DNA of 64,000 nt from Bradyrhizobium monzae (GTDB taxonomy: Bacteria; Pseudomonadota; Alphaproteobacteria; Rhizobiales; Xanthobacteraceae). Made by a program: the position numbers and the translations under genes. The notes beneath the pieces were generated by a model that did not search any database, had not been told where the DNA came from, and worked only from the letters and a program-made list of their open reading frames with translations. The stretch spans positions 1,116,001 to 1,180,000 of the forward strand of contig NZ_JAIRDQ010000001.1 in NCBI RefSeq assembly GCF_021458635.1, given 5' to 3'. Shown piece by piece: positions 37,499-56,552 of this stretch. Numbering within the stretch: position 1 is the first letter of the stretch; each line of letters starts with the position of its first letter.

Positions 37499-38101
37499 TC
37501 ATGCATCCATGAAAACGGGGTAGAGGGAGGCGAGCAGCAGGAGCGCCATCAGGATATTGAAGGCGCGGACCAGCCGCTCCGAGGTCAGCACCGGTCGTAG
37601 TGCAGTGCCGAAGAAGGCCCAAACCACCGTCGAGATCGTGCCGACCAGCAGGCTGATCAGGGTCTGGATGGCGATGTTGATCGGGAACTGGGCAATGGCC
37701 GCGTAAGCCGTGATGGTGCCGATCACGATCACCCAGCCCTTGGCATTGATCCACTGGAACATGGCGGCGCCCCAGAAGGTCATCGGGCCGCGACCGTCTC
37801 CCTCGCCCGGCTTGGCCGGGCCGGACATGGCGATCACGGCAGCAAGGTAAATCAGGTAGGCGGCGCCGGCATATTTCAGGATGGTCTCGAGGATCGGATA
37901 GGCCAGAAACACCGTGCCGAGCCCGAGGCCGACGGTGGCGACCATGAAGGCAAAGCCGAGGACGACGCCGACGATGTGCGGAATGGTGCGACGGAAGCCG
38001 TAGGTCAGGCCGGAGGACAACAGCATGATGTTGTTCGGCCCGGGGGTGAAGTACATCACCACCATGAAGGCGAGGAAAGCATAGAACAGCGAGTAGGCCA
38101 T
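37499..38101 (-). CDS. LysE-family amino acid exporter
   Basis: 200 residues with six membrane segments. MYFTPGPNNIMLLSSGLTYGFRRTIPHIVGV is the LysE/RhtB signature. The start at 38101 is fixed by GAGGTGA. It exports small metabolites, probably amino acids. It sits 7 bp downstream of the EamA gene on the same strand, so it is probably cotranscribed with the ilv operon tail. Confidence 0.9.
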   Translation of the reverse strand: MAYSLFYAFLAFMVVMYFTPGPNNIMLLSSGLTYGFRRTIPHIVGVVLGFAFMVATVGLGLGTVFLAYPILETILKYAGAAYLIYLAAVIAMSGPAKPGEGDGRGPMTFWGAAMFQWINAKGWVIVIGTITAYAAIAQFPINIAIQTLISLLVGTISTVVWAFFGTALRPVLTSERLVRAFNILMALLLLASLYPVFMDA

Positions 38102-38108
38102 ATTCACC

Positions 38109-38999
38109 TCACGCGATTTTCGCAAGCGGTTCTTTGGGTAACGCCTTGGGCCGCCTGACCAGCACCATCACTGCGATGCCGCCGATGACCGTCACCATGC
38201 CGGCAAGGCGGAGCGGCCCGAACCGTTCGCCGAACACGATGCTGGACGCAGCCGAGCCGACGAACGGCACCAGCAGCGCGAACGGCACCACCTGTGCAGC
38301 AGGATAATCACGCAGCAGCCGCCCCCACAGCCAATAGGCGATGCTGGTCGAGATCGCTCCGATCACCAGCAGGCAGATCAGGCCGGTGAGCGACATATGG
38401 ATCAGCGACTGGAAAGTCTGCGTCGGCCCGTTCACGACCAGCGCGAGTGCGAACAGCGGTACCGCGGCGACGAGGCACAGCCAGGCGAACAGATCGAACA
38501 TCGGCGCGCCGCGGGCACCGCGCAGCAGGAGATTGCCGACGGCAAAGCAGATCGGCGCGATCATCAGCACCGCGAAGGCGCCGACGCTGAAATCATACCC
38601 GACGGTGCCGCAGATCATCAGCAGCCCGATCGCTGCGATGACGATGCCGAGCGTCTGCGCCGGCGCCGGGCGCTCGCCGAAGACGAGCGCCGCGAAGCCG
38701 ATCGTGAACAGCGCCTGGCTCTGCACCACGACGCTGGTCAGGCCCACCGGAACGCCATGGGCTATGCCGTAAGCCTGGCTCAGGAACTGACCGAGGAACA
38801 GCGTAAAGCTGATGGCGATGAGGAGCGACCAGGCGACCTTCGGCTTGGGAATGAACAGGCACGGCACCGCGGCGATCGAAAAGCGCATCGCCGTCATCAG
38901 CTCCGGCGAAAACTCGTCGAGCGCGATCCGGCTCGCCACAAAGGCAAACCCCCAGATGATCGCCACCATGAGGGCGATGAGGATGTCGGCGGGCTTCAT
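38109..38999 (-). CDS. EamA/DMT-family transporter
   Basis: 296 residues with ten membrane segments in two five-helix repeats (IIWGFAFVASRIALDEFSPELMTAMRF and ISTSIAYWLWGRLLRDYPAAQVVPFALLVPFVGSAASSIVFGE). DMT exporters of this sort move amino acids or metabolites outward. It lies between the methyltransferase and LysE genes in the same direction. The ATG at 38999 was preferred over one 141 bp upstream, which would add a soluble arginine-rich tail. Confidence 0.9.
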   Translation of the reverse strand: MKPADILIALMVAIIWGFAFVASRIALDEFSPELMTAMRFSIAAVPCLFIPKPKVAWSLLIAISFTLFLGQFLSQAYGIAHGVPVGLTSVVVQSQALFTIGFAALVFGERPAPAQTLGIVIAAIGLLMICGTVGYDFSVGAFAVLMIAPICFAVGNLLLRGARGAPMFDLFAWLCLVAAVPLFALALVVNGPTQTFQSLIHMSLTGLICLLVIGAISTSIAYWLWGRLLRDYPAAQVVPFALLVPFVGSAASSIVFGERFGPLRLAGMVTVIGGIAVMVLVRRPKALPKEPLAKIA

Positions 39000-39048
39000 T
39001 GTTGTTTCCGGTTCTGCCCTGTCGTGCAGCCCTGCTTGTTCTTCTCGT

Positions 39049-39744
39049 CTAGCCTTGCTCGCCGGCTTTCGGTTTGCGCAGGAGATAAGTCCCGTGCATC
39101 GGTGCGTGATAGTCGGCCGAGACCAGCGTGAAGCCGACATCGGTCAGCATCCGCTCCATCACCCAGCCGAAGGTCGAATATTCGTCGCGCATATGCGTCA
39201 CCACGCTCTCGCGCGAGAAATCATGGTTCTTGATATGGTAGTCGGCCCATTGCTCGACATCGCGCTCGACCGCGTCGGGCATCGAGGCGTAGACGATGTC
39301 GCGGAGATAGAAGGTCGCCCCCGGTTTCAGCGCGCGAAGAATCCGCGACATTGCGACTGCCTTCCAGAAATCCGGCAGATGATGCAGCGTGAACTCGCTG
39401 ACGATCAGATCGTAGGATTCGGGCTGGTAAGCAAAACTGAGCAGGCCGGCCGATTGCGTGCGGACAGGCGCCTTGCGGTCGCGGGCATAGATCTCGGCCA
39501 GCGCCAGCATCGCCGGCGAGATGTCGATGGCATCGACTTGGGCACCCATCAACGCGGCTTCGGTGGCCAGCACGCCGTTGCCGCAGCCGATGTCGGCGAT
39601 GCGCCAGCCGCGCTGGACTCCCAGCATTTTCAGCGCGGCGCGCGCCCGCAGATCGGCATCGTCGTGGGCGTCGTAGATCGACGCCACCGCGGGCTCGATG
39701 CCCATCCGGTTCCGCTCGTTGTAGTACCAGTCGCGCGCCAGCAT
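39049..39744 (-). CDS. Class I SAM-dependent methyltransferase
   Basis: 231 residues. SAM motif I ADIGCGNGVLATEAA, acidic residue in VDAIDISPAML, and motif YDLIVSEFTLHHLPDF. It is of the Methyltransf_11/25 type with an unknown acceptor. It begins 3 bp after the ilvH stop, so it is tied to the ilv operon. This is an unusual partner for acetolactate synthase, and no role in branched-chain synthesis is known to me. Confidence 0.88.
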   Translation of the reverse strand: MLARDWYYNERNRMGIEPAVASIYDAHDDADLRARAALKMLGVQRGWRIADIGCGNGVLATEAALMGAQVDAIDISPAMLALAEIYARDRKAPVRTQSAGLLSFAYQPESYDLIVSEFTLHHLPDFWKAVAMSRILRALKPGATFYLRDIVYASMPDAVERDVEQWADYHIKNHDFSRESVVTHMRDEYSTFGWVMERMLTDVGFTLVSADYHAPMHGTYLLRKPKAGEQG

Positions 39745-39747
39745 GGT

Positions 39748-40290
39748 TCACATCCCTTCAGGCCCGCGGCCGATCGCGGCAACGCCGGTGCGCGACACCT
39801 CGACAAGGCCGAGCGGGCGCATCAGGTCGATAAACTGATTGATCTTGTCCGTATTGCCTGTGATTTCGAACACGAAGCTCTCGGTGGTGGCGTCGATGAC
39901 GCGGGCGCGGAACGCATCCGCCAGCCGCAACGCCTCGACGCGATGCTCGCCCTGCCCGCGCACCTTCACCATCGCAAGCTCACGCTCGATCGAGCGCTTG
40001 GTCTGGGTCATGTCGACGACCTGGTAGACCGGGATCATGCGATCGAGCTGGTGCTTGATCTGCTGGATCACCATCGGTGTGCCCGTGGTGACGATGGTGA
40101 TGCGCGAGAGATGCTTCTGCGCTTCAGTCTCCGAAACCGTGAGGCTCTCGATGTTGTAGCCGCGGCCCGAGAACAGGCCGATGACGCGGGCGAGCACGCC
40201 GGGCTCGTTCTGCACGAGCACCGCAAGCGTGTGCGTCTCGTTCGGATCGTGACGCTCTTCGATGAAGTAGGCGGATGCGGGCTGGTTCAT
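39748..40290 (-). CDS. ilvH: Acetolactate synthase small (regulatory) subunit
   Basis: 180 residues. The N-terminal ACT domain (HTLAVLVQNEPGVLARVIGLFSGRGYNIESLTV) and the ALS_ss_C part (TDKINQFIDLMRPLGLVEVSRTG) are both present. It binds valine and stimulates the catalytic subunit. The start at 40290 has GAGGGG upstream. The order ilvB, threonine dehydratase, ilvH differs from the usual direct ilvB-ilvH pair. Confidence 0.95.
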   Translation of the reverse strand: MNQPASAYFIEERHDPNETHTLAVLVQNEPGVLARVIGLFSGRGYNIESLTVSETEAQKHLSRITIVTTGTPMVIQQIKHQLDRMIPVYQVVDMTQTKRSIERELAMVKVRGQGEHRVEALRLADAFRARVIDATTESFVFEITGNTDKINQFIDLMRPLGLVEVSRTGVAAIGRGPEGM

Positions 40291-40313
40291 TGTCGTCCCC
40301 TCTGGTCTCTGCC

Positions 40314-41285
40314 TCACGCCATCGCTGGCGCGTCCGTCCCGACCCAACGGCGGAACAGATCGAAATCGATATTGCCACCGGACAGCACGAGACCGACGCG
40401 CCTGCCCCTCAGCTTGCTCTTTTCTTGCAGCGCCGCGGCGAGCGCGGCGGCACCGGCACCCTCGGCGAGATTGTGCGTATCGGTCCAGTAGGCGCGGATC
40501 GCGGCGGCAACCTCGTCGTCGGTCACCTGGACGATGCGCGAGGCACCCTTGCGGATCAGCGCGAGCGCATCTGCATCCGGGATGCGCGTCGCCATGCCAT
40601 CAGCGAGCGTGTTGGCGGTCTCAGTCGCCACGATCTTGCCCGCCGCGAACGACAGCGCATAGGACGGCGCTTCCGTCGACTGCACGCCGACGATCTCGGT
40701 CTTCAGGCCCAGGAGATCGCACGCCATGATGCAGCCGCAGATGCCGGAGCCCTGCCCGATCGGCACATAGAGAATGTCGAGGTCGGGTGCGGTCCGAAAC
40801 AGCTCGAGCGCGTAGGTCGCAACGCCCAGCACCAGATCCGGGTGGAACGACGGCACCATGTGGAGCCCAGCGAACTGCGCGCGGCGCTCGGCCTCCTCGC
40901 GCGCGGCCTGAAAATCCTCGCCGTACTCGACCAGCTCCGCGCCGAAAGCCTTCATCGCGCGGTTCTTCTCGACCGAGTTGCCGCGCGGCACATAGATCAC
41001 CGCGGGCAGGCCGTGACGGCTCGCGGCAAAGGCCAGGCTCTGGCCGTGATTGCCGCGCGTCGCCGAGATGATGCCGGGCGTGTTCGGACTCTCGTGCTTG
41101 AGACGGTCGAGATAGACGAGGCCTCCGCGCACCTTGAACGCGCCGATCGGCGTGTGGTTCTCGTGCTTGACCACGACTTCAGTGCCGAGCCGCGCAGCGA
41201 GCAAGGGCCAGCCGCGCGCCGGCGTCGCCGGGACCGCCCGCCCCACGATCGCATGTGCGCGCTCGAGCTCCGTCAGGTCGAACAT
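40314..41285 (-). CDS. Threonine dehydratase-like PLP enzyme
   Basis: 323 residues. PLP lysine in IGAFKVRGG, SATRGNHGQSLA, phosphate loop GQGSGICG and the C-terminal SGGN. It lacks the C-terminal ACT/regulatory domain of biosynthetic IlvA, so it resembles short threonine/serine dehydratases. Placed 4 bp after ilvB and before ilvH under an Ile/Leu/Val attenuator, it probably supplies 2-oxobutyrate for isoleucine. Because it is uninhibited in form, regulation may rest on the attenuator. A catabolic serine/threonine lyase role is also possible. Confidence 0.88.
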   Translation of the reverse strand: MFDLTELERAHAIVGRAVPATPARGWPLLAARLGTEVVVKHENHTPIGAFKVRGGLVYLDRLKHESPNTPGIISATRGNHGQSLAFAASRHGLPAVIYVPRGNSVEKNRAMKAFGAELVEYGEDFQAAREEAERRAQFAGLHMVPSFHPDLVLGVATYALELFRTAPDLDILYVPIGQGSGICGCIMACDLLGLKTEIVGVQSTEAPSYALSFAAGKIVATETANTLADGMATRIPDADALALIRKGASRIVQVTDDEVAAAIRAYWTDTHNLAEGAGAAALAAALQEKSKLRGRRVGLVLSGGNIDFDLFRRWVGTDAPAMA

Positions 41286-41289
41286 GGGC

Positions 41290-43065
41290 TCACACCAGCG
41301 CCTTGCCGCCGGCGAACGCTTTGGCCGTGGCTTCGTCGTTGGCCTGCTCGGGCAACAGCATCTCGTTGTGCGCCTTGCCGGAGGGGATCATCGGGAAGCA
41401 GTTTTCCAGCGCCGCGACGCGGCAGTCGAACAGCACCGGGCGTTTGACCGAGATCATCTCCTTGATGGCACCTTCGAGATCGGCAGGCTTTGTGACCTGG
41501 AGACCGACCCCGCCATAGGCTTCCGCGAGCTTGACGAAATCCGGCAGCGCCTCCGAGTAGGAATGCGACAGCCGGTTGCCGTGGAGCAACTGCTGCCACT
41601 GCCGCACCATGCCCATGTACTGGTTGTTCAGGATGAAGATCTTGATCGGCAGCTCGTACTGAACCGCCGTCGACATCTCCTGCATCGTCATCTGCACCGA
41701 GGCGTCGCCCGCGATGTCGATGACGAGGCTGTCGGGATGGGCGACCTGCACGCCAATCGCGGCCGGCAGGCCGTAGCCCATGGTGCCGAGACCGCCCGAC
41801 GTCATCCAGCGGTGCGGCTCCTCGAAGCCGTAGAACTGCGCCGCCCACATCTGATGCTGACCGACTTCGGTCGTGATGTAGGTGTCCTTGCCGCGCGTCA
41901 GCTCGAACAGGCTCTGGATCGCGTGCTGCGGCAGGATGACGTCGTTGCTCTTCTTGTAATAGAGCGAGTTGCGGGCGCGCCATTGCGCGATCTGCTGCCA
42001 CCAGGTCTTGATGTCCGGCTTCTTCGCCTCGGCCTTGAACACCTGGAGGATGTCGCCGAGGATGTTGCCGCAATCGCCGATGATCGGCACGTCGACGCGG
42101 ATGTTCTTGTTGATCGAGGACGGATCGATGTCGATGTGGATTTTCTTCGAGTTCGGCGAGAACGCATCGACACGGCCGGTGATGCGATCGTCGAAGCGCG
42201 CGCCGACGCACAGCATGACGTCGCAATCATGCATGGTCATGTTGGCTTCGTAGGTGCCGTGCATGCCGAGCATGCCGAGCCAGTTCTTGCCCGACGCCGG
42301 ATAGGCACCCAGGCCCATCAGCGTCGAGGTGATCGGGAAGCCCGTAACCTCGACCAGCTCGCGCAGCAACTTCGTCGCCTCGGGGCCGGAATTGATGACG
42401 CCGCCGCCGCTGTAGATCACCGGGCGCTTGGCGCCGGCCAGCAGCGACACGGCCTTGCGGATCTGCGTCGCATCGCCCTTCACGCGTGGCGCGTAGGAGC
42501 GGTGCACGTCGGACTTGCGCGGCGGATGATAGGTGCCGGTCGCGAACTGGACGTCCTTGGGAACGTCGACGAGCACCGGGCCCGGACGGCCCGTGGTCGC
42601 CACGTAGAAGGCTTCGTGCAGGACTTTTGCGAGATCGTTGACGTCGCGCACCAGCCAATTGTGCTTGGTGCAGGGGCGCGTGATACCGACGGTATCGCAT
42701 TCCTGGAACGCGTCGTTACCGATCAGGTGCGTCGGCACCTGACCGGAGATGCAGACCAGCGGGATCGAATCCATCAGAGCATCGGTCAGCGGCGTCACCA
42801 TGTTGGTGGCGCCGGGACCGGAGGTCACCAGCGCGACGCCGGGCTTGCCGGTCGAACGCGCGTAGCCCTCGGCGGCGTGGCCCGCGCCCTGCTCGTGGCG
42901 GACCAGGATGTGCTGGACTTCGCTCTGCTGGAAGATCTCGTCATAGATCGGAAGCACAGCGCCGCCGGGATAGCCGAAAATGTCGGTCACGCCGTGATCG
43001 ATCAGCGCGCGGACGATCATCGCGGCGCCGGTCATCTGGTTCGGATCGTGGCTCTTGTCGCTCAT
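41290..43065 (-). CDS. ilvB: Acetolactate synthase large subunit
   Basis: 591 residues. Glu of the TPP site in HILVRHEQGAGHAAEGYAR, FAD region YSGGGVINSGPEATKLL, and the TPP/Mg motif GDASVQMTMQEM...NNQYMGM. This is the ilvI/ilvB-type catalytic subunit that starts Ile and Val synthesis. The 5' leader (43123-43240) is a transcription attenuator. It has no strong Shine-Dalgarno other than GGAGCAAG. It heads the operon ilvB, dehydratase, ilvH, methyltransferase. Confidence 0.97.
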   Translation of the reverse strand: MSDKSHDPNQMTGAAMIVRALIDHGVTDIFGYPGGAVLPIYDEIFQQSEVQHILVRHEQGAGHAAEGYARSTGKPGVALVTSGPGATNMVTPLTDALMDSIPLVCISGQVPTHLIGNDAFQECDTVGITRPCTKHNWLVRDVNDLAKVLHEAFYVATTGRPGPVLVDVPKDVQFATGTYHPPRKSDVHRSYAPRVKGDATQIRKAVSLLAGAKRPVIYSGGGVINSGPEATKLLRELVEVTGFPITSTLMGLGAYPASGKNWLGMLGMHGTYEANMTMHDCDVMLCVGARFDDRITGRVDAFSPNSKKIHIDIDPSSINKNIRVDVPIIGDCGNILGDILQVFKAEAKKPDIKTWWQQIAQWRARNSLYYKKSNDVILPQHAIQSLFELTRGKDTYITTEVGQHQMWAAQFYGFEEPHRWMTSGGLGTMGYGLPAAIGVQVAHPDSLVIDIAGDASVQMTMQEMSTAVQYELPIKIFILNNQYMGMVRQWQQLLHGNRLSHSYSEALPDFVKLAEAYGGVGLQVTKPADLEGAIKEMISVKRPVLFDCRVAALENCFPMIPSGKAHNEMLLPEQANDEATAKAFAGGKALV

Positions 43066-43122
43066 TGGCTTGCTCCGGATGCGCTGTTGTCAGCGGCTTC
43101 GTTCGTGTCGGGTTCGGGAAAT

Positions 43123-43145
43123 AAAAAAGGCCCCGAAGAGGGACC
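43123..43145 (-). terminator. Attenuator terminator in the ilvB leader
   Basis: GGTCCC-TCTTC-GGGGCC (stem of 6 with one G-U, 43129-43145) followed by TTTTTT (43123-43128), 57 bp before the ilvB start. This is an intrinsic terminator upstream of the structural genes. Confidence 0.85.
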
Positions 43146-43202
43146 CTGCACACCGCCTGTCATGTGGATGGCAGCTAGCCATCCCCGGCGGTGTGCCTGG
43201 GT
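43140..43202 (-). promoter_or_regulatory. Antiterminator/pause structure of the ilvB attenuator
   Basis: On the minus strand GCACACCGCC (43187-43196) pairs perfectly with GGCGGTGTGC (43148-43157). Inside it GGATGGC-TAGCT-GCCATCC forms a second stem around the leader stop codon. The outer stem extends by ACCC / GGGT into the first bases of the terminator arm, so the long stem and the terminator exclude each other. A ribosome that stalls early leaves the long stem free to form (antitermination); a ribosome at the stop codon covers it and the terminator can form. Confidence 0.7.
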
Positions 43203-43240
43203 ACGACGGCGATAAGGATGCTGGTAATAATGTTACGCAT
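43175..43240 (-). CDS. Leader peptide of the ilvB attenuator (21 aa)
   Basis: MRNIITSILIAVVPRHTAGDG: eight of the residues 4 to 13 and neighbours are Ile, Leu or Val (codons ATT ATT, ATC CTT ATC, GTC GTA), the amino acids made by the operon. This is the control codon pattern of a classical attenuator. The ATG at 43240 is about 25 nt after the predicted transcription start. The stop TAG at 43175 lies in the loop of the inner hairpin. Confidence 0.85.
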   Translation of the reverse strand: MRNIITSILIAVVPRHTAGDG

Positions 43241-43271
43241 GGCGGCGCTCGGCTTCCCAAAGGTTGCGCGA

Positions 43272-43299
43272 AACATAGCGACCAAAGCCCGGATGTCAA
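43272..43299 (-). promoter_or_regulatory. Sigma-70-type promoter of the ilvB operon
   Basis: TTGACA (43294-43299), 16-bp spacer, TATGTT (43272-43277) on the minus strand. The -35 is a perfect consensus. The start of transcription would be near 43265, just before the leader peptide. Confidence 0.75.
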
Positions 43300-43393
43300 G
43301 GCAAAGCGGTCGTTCTCGCGCGATTTTGGCAATGTAACGATGTTCCCGGGGTTCGGCGAGGGGTAAATGCGGGAACCCGAGCACAAAACCACG

Positions 43394-44335
43394 TCAGCCG
43401 GGGTTTCGCGCAACGCGCTCCGCGGCCGCCAGCCATCCGCTCGCCTCCTCCGGCTTCACCCATTCGAACGCGGGCAACTGGTGCCGGAACCAGGTGAATT
43501 GACGCTTGGCGTAGTGGCGGGTGTCGGCCCGGCCGATCATAGCGGCCTCCTCCAGGCTGAGCTCACCGTGCAGATGGCGGATCAACGCCGGCACACCGTG
43601 GGCCTTCATGGCCGGCAGCAGCGGGTCGAGCCCGCGAGCGGCGAGCAGCTCGACCTCGGTCTGGGCACCAGCGCCCAGCATAACGTCGAACCGGGCGTCG
43701 ATGCGGGCATAAAGCTCATCACGTCCGGGCGCGAGAAACACCGCGCGAAAACTGTCCTTCGGCAATAGCGGCGGCTGGCCCTCATGGTGCCAGTCGAGCA
43801 GCGAACGACCGGTCGCCTCGACCACCTCAAGCGCGCGCGCGATGCGTGTGCGGTCGCGGAGATTCAGTCGCTCGGCAGCGCGGGGATCGCGACGCGCGAG
43901 TTCCGCATGCAGGGCCTCGACGCCGTTGCGCTCCAGCCGGGCACGTACGTCCTCACGCATTTCCGCTGGGATCGGCGGCACGACCGAGAGACCCGCCGTC
44001 AGCGCCTTGAAATACAGCCCAGTGCCGCCAATGAAGATTGGCAGGCGGCCCTCGACCCGCGCTTCTTCGAGCGCCTTCGCGGCATCAGCCACCCAGGCGC
44101 CGGCCGAAAAGTTCACGGCCGCATCGACATGGCCATAGAGGCGATGCGGCACGCGCGCCTCCTCATCCTGCGTGGGACGCGCGGTGATGACGCGGAGGTC
44201 GCGATAGACCTGCATGGAATCGGCGTTGATCACGATTCCGCCCGCGTTCAGCGCAAGCTCCAGCGCCAGTGCCGACTTGCCGCTAGCGGTCGGGCCTGCG
44301 ATAAGCACGGCCTTGCTCGAATGCCTCTCGCTCAC
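43394..44335 (-). CDS. miaA: tRNA dimethylallyltransferase
   Basis: 313 residues. P-loop [11 protein letters not shown], then [34 protein letters not shown] and the late RQFTWFRHQ block. It adds dimethylallyl to A37 of tRNAs that read UNN codons. The start is a GTG at 44335 with GAGG about 6 nt before it; a longer frame would overlap the divergent serB gene (starts at 44347). Only 11 bp separate the two starts, so both promoters lie inside the opposite gene's 5' region. Confidence 0.95.
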
Positions 44336-44346
44336 GAAAACCTCAA

Positions 44347-45249
44347 ATGTCCCTCGTCGCCACGCTGATCTGCAATCCCGCCAATCCCGCCCTCGACTCG
44401 ACCATCGTCGACGGCGCCCGCGCCGTGCTGCCGCAAGCGGCACCCGCGCACTGGCTGTTCGACGGGGTTGCGGTCGACATCCCCTTCGGCGCCGACAGTA
44501 ACCTCGAAGGCGACCGTCACGCCATCGAAGAGCGATTGCGCGAGCTTCGCGGCGATCTGCCCATCGACATCGTCGTGCAGCCTGCCGGCGTCCGGCGCAA
44601 GAAGCTTTTTCTCGCCGACATGGATTCCACCATGATCGGCCAGGAATGCATCGACGAACTCGCCGATCTCGTCGGGATGAAGGCGCACGTGGCGGCCATC
44701 ACCGAACGCGCAATGCGCGGCGAGATCGAGTTCGAGCCGGCACTGCGCGAGCGCGTCGCGCTACTGAAGGATCTCCCGGCCAGCGTCGTCGACGAGGTGC
44801 TGGCCAAGCGCATCACGCTGACCCCGGGTGGCCGCGAATTGGTCGCGACCATGCGCGCCCACGGCGCCTATACCTGCCTCGTCTCCGGCGGCTTCACCCT
44901 GTTCACCAGCGCGGTCGCCGCCAAGATCGGCTTCCAGGAGAACCGCGCCAACGAGCTCGTCGTGCGCGACGGCAAGTTCACCGGTGAAGTGAAGGAGCCG
45001 ATCCTGGGTCGCGCCGCCAAGCTCGCGACGCTGGTGGATTTGATGGAGTCGTTCGATCTCGACGACATCGACTCGGTCGTCGTCGGCGACGGCGCCAATG
45101 ATCTGGCGATGATCCAGGCGGCAGGGCTGGGTGTGGCGTATCACGCCAAGCCTGCCGTCGCGGCCGCCGCGGCTGCGCGGATCGACCACGGCGATCTCAC
45201 CGCGCTGCTCTATGCGCAGGGCTATAAGCGCGCCGAGTTCGTGGAATAG
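44347..45249 (+). CDS. serB: Phosphoserine phosphatase
   Basis: 300 residues. The HAD motif is DMDSTMI with Asp91 and Asp93, followed by [15 protein letters not shown] and [11 protein letters not shown]. The N-terminal ~85 residues are an ACT-like domain typical of SerB. It makes serine from phosphoserine in the last step of synthesis. It is divergent from miaA. Confidence 0.95.
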
Positions 45250-56082: not shown

Positions 56083-56229
56083 GCCAACAGCTTAGAACGC
56101 GGTCCACCGCGGGGCCAAGATCAGACCGAAGGCCGCCCAAATCTATCCAAAGGGAACCTCGGCCCGTCCGCGCCAAACCCCTGTCTTTCTAAACCTTTGC
56201 CGCCTATATTGGGGGTGTCGGTTCGCCGG

Positions 56230-56552
56230 CTATGGAAATAAACGGTCGTCGCAATAAACCATTCGGACCCGGGGGCGGTACCCGGCGCCTCCACCAAAGC
56301 TCATCGTTCGGCGGGCTTGGCCCACTGACAAGTGAGCTTCGGCGGGGGCGAAATAGGATCGACGAGGGCGTAAAGGGCGAACTTTTTCCCGGTATTGTTC
56401 CGCCGTTATCGGGCTATGCAATAGTTGCCAACGACAACTTTGCTCCGGTTGCTCAGGCTGCGTAACGCAGTTTGAAAGACCATCTTAAAGTCCTAACGGG
56501 TTAAGCTCCGTTAGGCGGGGTTCGGAGGCACCTGGCAACAGAAGCCTCCACT
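56230..56552 (+). ncRNA. ssrA: Circularly permuted two-piece tmRNA
   Basis: The acceptor piece comes first and ends ...CGCCTCCACCA at 56296. After a 47-nt intervening segment with AAGCTCA / TGAGCTT arms, the coding piece begins GGGGGCG at 56344. GGGGGCG pairs with CGCCTCC to make a 7-bp acceptor stem with G3-U70, the alanine identity pair. The motif GGATCGACGAGGG follows. The tag is encoded at 56427-56465 as ANDNFAPVAQAA then TAA, after TAGTT and resume codon GCC. This permuted layout is the alphaproteobacterial form. The 5' end (about 56230) and 3' end (about 56552, after the GGAGGC / GCCTCC hairpin) are approximate. The T-loop (GGCGGTA) is not the usual form. It rescues stalled ribosomes and tags their products for ClpXP. 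Confidence 0.9.

Follow-up and report, generated by a model that had tools for sequence, protein, structure and literature searches.

Organization of the ilvB Locus

In the window, i.e. the whole stretch of 64,000 nucleotides of Bradyrhizobium monzae DNA that was analyzed, a short leader region precedes a gene cluster headed by ilvB (Table 1). On the same strand, the order of genes is ilvB, threonine dehydratase, ilvH, methyltransferase, EamA exporter, LysE exporter, and ilvC. The threonine dehydratase harbors a PALP domain only, and an ACT domain was not found; a search of the genome with this protein returned 11 matches, itself included. The true start of ilvH is likely an internal ATG near 40290. 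For the methyltransferase, no NCBIfam model among the 25 listed reached its cutoff. The close spacing suggests that the genes behind the ilvB leader are co-transcribed. A gap of 132 bases lies ahead of ilvC, which may have its own promoter. Two further genes were noted in the window. The gene miaA, encoding tRNA A37 dimethylallyltransferase, is situated just upstream of the leader on the same strand (43394-44443), and an alphaproteobacterial tmRNA gene resides at 56178-56552, where the permuted-tmRNA model matches too.

Table 1. Features of the ilvB leader and the genes behind it
Feature	Position	Strand	Basis
Predicted sigma-70-type promoter TTGACA-N16-TATGTT	43272..43299	-	10/12 consensus matches; shuffles mean 0.2
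Start-of-transcript block CGCGCAACCTTTGGGAAG	43253..43270	-	CGCAA invariant in 30 rows; putative function
Leader ORF MRNIITSILIAVVPRHTAGDG, 21 codons, stop TAG 43177-43175	43175..43240	-	Similar leader in 30/30 loci, own included
Rare GTA (Val) at codon 13; no further branched-chain codon before the stem	43202..43204	-	GTA in 87/92 leaders
10-bp long stem, 5' arm (codons 15-18)	43187..43196	-	RNA fold and covariation count
10-bp long stem, 3' arm	43148..43157	-	RNA fold and covariation count
Inner 7-bp stem (43184-43178 with 43172-43166), loop holds leader stop TAG	43166..43184	-	RNA fold and covariation count
ACCC, possible antiterminator extension with GGGT 43146-43143	43199..43202	-	In minimum free energy (MFE) fold only if terminator 3' arm is omitted
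Intrinsic terminator: hairpin 43147-43127 and six-T run 43128-43123	43123..43147	-	Fold, terminator scan, alignment
ilvB, acetolactate synthase large subunit	41290..43065	-	NF006581, 1196.7 bits, cutoff 974
Threonine dehydratase	40314..41285	-	NF004771, 541.6 bits, cutoff 317
ilvH, acetolactate synthase small subunit	39748..40347	-	NF008864, 232.5 bits, cutoff 119
Class I methyltransferase, no specific model	39049..39744	-	None of 25 listed NCBIfam models reaches its cutoff
EamA-type and LysE-type exporters	37499-39140	-	Between acetolactate synthase genes and ilvC

The clusters of 20 chosen relatives (6 from the genus, 12 more from the family, and 2 from other families) were compared at 45% identity, on the same strand and within 9 kb. 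They contained ilvH in 20, ilvC in 19, the LysE exporter in 14, and the EamA exporter in 13 cases. As judged by these comparisons, ilvH and ilvC are the core of the cluster, and the threonine dehydratase and the methyltransferase are patchy. A first, sequence-only reading of this DNA had placed threonine dehydratase, ilvH, and a methyltransferase under the control of the leader. The gene order was read correctly, but the dehydratase and the methyltransferase do not define the switch because they occur in just 6/20 and 7/20 clusters, respectively.

Elements of the Leader

The putative promoter consists of TTGACA at 43299-43294 and TATGTT at 43277-43272 on the minus strand, separated by a spacer of 16 nt. 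It was the one sigma-70-like site (43299-43272) in a scan of positions 42900-43500 (601 bases), for which shuffled sequences gave a mean of 0.2, and its TTGAC was unchanged across 30 aligned rows, with the own row counted. Downstream of the -10 box, the block CGCGCAACCTTTGGGAAG is kept in most of the 30 rows, which exceeds the apparent need of a weak ribosome-binding site. This block likely contains the start of transcription together with such a binding site. The leader ORF MRNIITSILIAVVPRHTAGDG devotes 7 of its 21 codons to isoleucine, leucine, or valine (ILV), all of them confined to codons 4-13. The six-T run of the terminator is followed after 57 nt by the start of ilvB (43065), and an attenuated RNA would be ~140 nt long if transcription begins ~7 bases past the -10 box. 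The 143-nt leader RNA was calculated to fold with -60.7 kcal/mol (z = -3.32), and none of 200 shuffles was equally stable. The long stem and the terminator are present together in the MFE fold of the own leader. Thus, the parts named in the sequence-only reading, i.e. the consensus promoter, a 21-residue leader peptide packed with Ile/Leu/Val codons, the 10-bp stem, the inner stem around the leader stop codon, and the terminator with six T, were all recovered at base level, by fold and covariation in the case of the stems.

Taken by themselves, several of these parts are ordinary. At the local ILV frequency, at least 7 ILV codons in 20 have a probability of P = 0.14, and the leader ORF alone is therefore unremarkable; for at least 7 in one fixed 10-codon stretch, the value is P = 0.0019, uncorrected for having looked. 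One terminator-like site was found, which is likewise unremarkable by itself because shuffles average 0.6. As far as sequence comparison can tell, conservation is what raises the ilvB leader above chance.

Conservation and Covariation

By BLAST with 241 bases, 38 of 119 family genomes, the query's own among them, were found to carry the leader. A plasmid BLAST with the leader gave no match. The 30 best-scoring places, i.e. the query and the best 29 others, were taken as the close set. In all 30 loci ilvB lies just downstream, and the peptides are of the kind MRNKVT-LLI-VVPWHTAGGG. The 30 close leaders were aligned without the use of structure, and a covariance model was built from that alignment. 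When the three stems were scored on the structure-free alignment, 98.0% of 690 cells were paired, compared with 33-51% when the partners were slid. Changes on both sides had occurred in 10 of 23 stem pairs; the mean for shuffled alignments was 4.7, and 0 of 500 shuffles reached as high a count. The covarying stem bases in orthologous leaders that the earlier reading had proposed to look for are consequently present. In the inner stem, 100% of cells were paired and 4 of 7 pairs had changed on both sides in the 30 close leaders, in which the terminator pairs were also maintained and in part covarying. This stem covariation is strong, yet it is not independent proof, the rows being related and the structure having been drawn from members of the set.

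Matches to the covariance model were obtained in 100 of the 119 genomes of the family, 30 sources of the model among them, and in 108 of the 249 genomes of the order, with 6 sources among them. The element is conserved in relatives, as the earlier reading required. In a class-wide sample of 240 genomes, it matched the query genome only (1/240). The model is therefore order-specific, and this result says nothing against attenuators in other orders. From the order search, 30 loci were fetched: 22 from nine other families (the distant set), 2 new ones from the same genus, and 6 places already seen. All 30 have ilvB directly downstream, and the same was true for 40/40 matches picked from the low-scoring end of the family and order lists. 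In all of the leaders scored (86/86; 6 of the 92 were skipped since the T-run pattern failed to match), the leader stop codon lies within a stem of 8 or more pairs. Within the scored leaders, the stop codon is entirely unpaired in 41 and the terminator pairs share the MFE fold with the enclosing stem in 63. The peptide sequence varies strongly among families, and what persists is the ILV content, the stem, and the linkage to ilvB. A simple ORF filter gave no plausible ILV-rich leader for L052, L054, L055, and L056, but a second picker found one in each. Because this picker favors ILV-dense frames (not GTA as such), the frequency of ILV codons seen in the distant and weak sets is in part a result of this choice.

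Likely Control Codons and GUA

Codon usage was analyzed in 92 leaders, comprising 30 close, 22 distant, and 40 weak matches with 89 distinct codon strings; the start codon was excluded. GTA, found in nearly all of these leaders (Table 1), makes up 48% of their 241 valine codons. It occurs 116 times in frame versus 21 and 0 times in the other two frames. The corresponding share in ilvB itself, computed for the close and distant loci, is 0.7% in the 30 former and 4.1% in the 22 latter, and in 40 ORFs of the window taken as genes by base composition, GTA accounts for 2.3% of valine codons. From the A-ending share of other fourfold codons, 24.7 GTA codons would be expected, with ~23 of the 92 leaders having one; a binomial P value for the excess overstates the case, as it takes no account of how the leaders are related. 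ATT and CTT are likewise elevated in the leaders. The GC content at third positions is 0.44 for ILV codons and 0.74 for non-ILV codons within the 92 leaders. As the non-ILV codons keep the value of 0.74, the ILV codon bias does not reflect a general lack of codon bias. The last GTA most often begins 7-8 bases ahead of the stem (34 of 74 leaders counted). From these sequence data, the rare GUA at codon 13 is likely to be the key control codon, or sensor, of the leader.

The genome encodes tRNA-Val with anticodons GAC, TAC, and CAC and tRNA-Leu with anticodons CAA, TAA, TAG, GAG, and CAG. tRNA-Ile(GAT) was absent among 46 tRNA matches (45 of them called by ARAGORN), and the tRNA list is thus incomplete. 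Excerpted text of PMC1183508 argues that the choice of control codons should track selective tRNA charging and not plain rarity: control codons need not be merely rare, and a little-used isoacceptor may even stay charged. Judged by title and beginning of abstract, none of the papers among the matches listed was recognized as describing the GUA bias in these leaders, and Vitreschak et al. 2004 may describe it. The near-universal GUA in ilvB leaders is the new point here, and it makes the choice of control codons in attenuators testable in high-GC bacteria. A wider proposal is offered tentatively, as one that we consider rather more likely to be wrong than right. Across the order, the ilvB attenuator might be built on a near-obligatory rare GUA shortly before the stop-enclosing hairpin, with the dwell on GUA sensing via Val(UAC) and with a timing switch that needs no dedicated antiterminator, and Corynebacterium might have reached GUA/CUU independently.

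Proposed Antiterminator Pairing and Modeled Ribosome Positions

The sequence-only reading had the long stem extended by ACCC/GGGT into the terminator arm as an antiterminator, and this part of it is less well supported. In the own leader, the long stem plus ACCC:GGGT forms when the 3' arm of the terminator is omitted (-40.4 kcal/mol). With the full sequence, the terminator form is better than the extended stem by 6.1 kcal/mol; in the close set (30 leaders), this advantage averages 4.9 kcal/mol and ranges from 0.0 to 11.4 kcal/mol. Upstream pairing of 3 or more bases of the terminator 5' arm, by ACCC/GGGT or the like, is possible in 29 of the 30 close leaders and in 14 of the 22 distant ones; in the latter the pairing is, by eye, not of the CCC:GGG form, which is thus not kept in other families. 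The three CCC:GGG pairs showed no covariation above shuffles (154 to 281 of 500 reached the observed values).

Ribosomes were then placed on the leaders in a folding model. For the close set, the mean modeled terminator probability was 0.65-0.67 with the ribosome 17-20 codons before the stop codon. It was 0.88-0.96 when the ribosome occupied the last 12 codons, with 0.96 at a distance of 9-11 codons and 0.94 at the stop itself. On average, the terminator of the close set is position-dependent in this respect, which speaks for the extension proposed earlier. In the own leader, the terminator was favored at all modeled ribosome positions (0.86-0.99). For the 22 distant leaders, the mean was 0.93-0.96 from 18 codons before the stop onward; it was lower at -19 and -20, positions to which just 6 and 2 leaders contribute. 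Because the terminator barely depends on ribosome position there, a mutually exclusive antiterminator is unsupported in the distant set. In the close leaders, modeled hiding of the terminator 5' arm fell from ~0.6 to 0.01-0.29 with the ribosome 9-11 codons before the stop and was back to 0.42-0.55 with the ribosome further on (0.46 at the stop codon). Since the arm is partly hidden again, even at the stop, the model yields no clean on/off pattern. The position of the dip moves by about two codons with the assumed ribosome footprint.

With the modeled ribosome on codons 12-13, the two valine codons, CCC would lie beneath it and the terminator arm would become free. A stall at GUA would bring the ribosome into contact with the foot of the stem, and the models predict a freed terminator in this state, which counts against the simple reading. 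Either the short overlap acts kinetically, as argued for Corynebacterium, or the long stem is a timing hairpin. A pairing of TTTGGG in the 5' UTR with CCCAGG was considered as an anti-antiterminator. Its part UUGGG:CCCAG is present in the MFE fold of the own leader, but the candidate was dropped as several relatives (e.g. L014 and L018) are, by eye, without GGG.

Proposed Mechanism and Alternative Explanations

The conserved ilvB leader is very probably a ribosome-mediated transcription attenuator, predicted to sense charged tRNAs for valine, isoleucine, and leucine. It combines a short ILV-rich ORF, a terminator between this ORF and ilvB, and a stem enclosing the stop codon. An ILV leader with a covarying stop-enclosing stem and a terminator ahead of ilvB is the anatomy of a ribosome-mediated attenuator. 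When amino acids are ample, the ribosome would reach the stop codon and melt the long stem, and the terminator would then stop transcription near 43123, giving the short RNA. During shortage, the ribosome would wait at Ile/Leu codons or at the rare GUA right before the stem, and the long stem could form. In the family, the Pro codon CCC might then form a short pairing with the GGG foot of the terminator and delay the terminator, such that some polymerases would continue into ilvB and the following genes. This step of kinetic competition is the weakest part of the explanation.

Several observations would fit an attenuator whose switch is purely kinetic, with the long stem as a pause or timing hairpin that synchronizes polymerase and ribosome and with no dedicated antiterminator. 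The long stem and the terminator coexist in the own MFE fold, the terminator hardly responds to ribosome position in the 22 distant leaders, and the CCC:GGG extension does not covary above shuffles. Against it stand the 29 of 30 close leaders in which 3 or more bases of the terminator 5' arm can find an upstream partner while the 3' arm has yet to appear, the sharp loss of this upstream pairing when the ribosome covers the Pro codon, and the variation of the close-set terminator probability with ribosome position. We rate the chances of this version somewhat below even, and they overlap with those of the attenuator as proposed above.

Explanations other than an attenuator fare worse. Because trans-acting products are made from the trp attenuator in Sinorhizobium, as stated in part of PMC7298713, the RNA might mainly be a small trans-acting RNA or the source of a functional leader peptide like rnTrpL/peTrpL, with control of ilvB being secondary; the peptide sequence, however, differs strongly from family to family, whereas the ILV content, the stem, and the position ahead of ilvB are retained, and we regard such a role as improbable. 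Even smaller is the probability of a ligand riboswitch, e.g. of the ppGpp or T-box type, instead of a translated leader. ppGpp riboswitches do precede ilvB in some bacteria (PMC10272879), but the leader ORF shows codon-level selection, and an Rfam scan of the 64-kb window detected no amino-acid leader, T-box, or ppGpp riboswitch family at gathering score, which only two tmRNA models reached. A constitutive terminator next to a chance ORF, without regulatory role, would agree with the finding that, the promoter-like site aside, ORF and terminator alone are not beyond chance. It is hard to reconcile with a conserved ORF, codon bias, and covarying stems across many genera, and we consider it just as improbable as the riboswitch.

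Relation to Known Attenuators

The ilvB leader belongs to the known alphaproteobacterial ilvB/ilvIH kind of attenuator, of which it is a well-supported, ordinary member: it lies directly upstream of ilvB, and alpha_tmRNA is found in the window. In the E. coli trp attenuator, the terminator shares a whole strand with the alternative stem, whereas the terminator of the own leader is nearly separate from its long stem. In the E. coli trp and ilv attenuators, termination is set by the position of the ribosome on the leader ORF, according to excerpts of PMC1183508 and PMC6123439.

That attenuators of branched-chain genes are already known in proteobacteria, as the sequence-only reading had stated, agrees with PMC1273637, PMC4117421, and PMC6123439, and alphaproteobacteria are included. 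The first of these, with reference to Vitreschak et al. 2004, counts "an ilvB leader peptide" among previously described elements of alphaproteobacteria, and the third reviews the class and cites the same work. A Sinorhizobium ilvIH cis-regulatory element is listed in an excerpt of PMC2573895 with Vitreschak et al. 2004 as the source. The alphaproteobacterial leaders of Vitreschak et al., to the extent that they are portrayed in the citing papers, resemble the own leader in having a peptide ahead of an acetolactate synthase operon. Attenuation of ilvBN in Caulobacter crescentus (Tarleton et al. 1994) is described in part of PMC4117421; by this description, it resembles the own leader in its Ile and Val leader codons (tandem there), its rho-independent terminator, and its acetolactate synthase genes. 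Since the covariance model matched the query alone in the 240-genome class sample, there is no close sequence similarity to the elements of other orders. No word beginning with "ilv" appears in the main text of PMC4842269 and PMC5082802 on Bradyrhizobium japonicum, and none beginning with "ilvB" or "ilvI" in PMC2965389.

For the "fast" attenuator of ilvBNC in Corynebacterium glutamicum, the excerpted text of PMC11857589 names CUU and GUA as conserved control codons and argues from mutants that a trinucleotide overlap decides between antiterminator and terminator. Going by that excerpt, the CUU and GUA control codons are points of likeness to the ilvB leader, and the three-base overlap may be another. 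The Corynebacterium system differs, on the same partial source, in its unrelated phylum, its leaderless ORF, and an extra anti-antiterminator hairpin that blocks leader translation (PMC11857589).

These results support the annotation of a branched-chain amino acid leader before ilvB throughout a large bacterial order, and a covariance model is now provided for a leader for which no Rfam leader family reaches gathering score. In one of the genomes matched by the model (G336, locus L154), two ilvB-type genes lie ~2.7 kb from each other, and the leader model matches separately for each of them.
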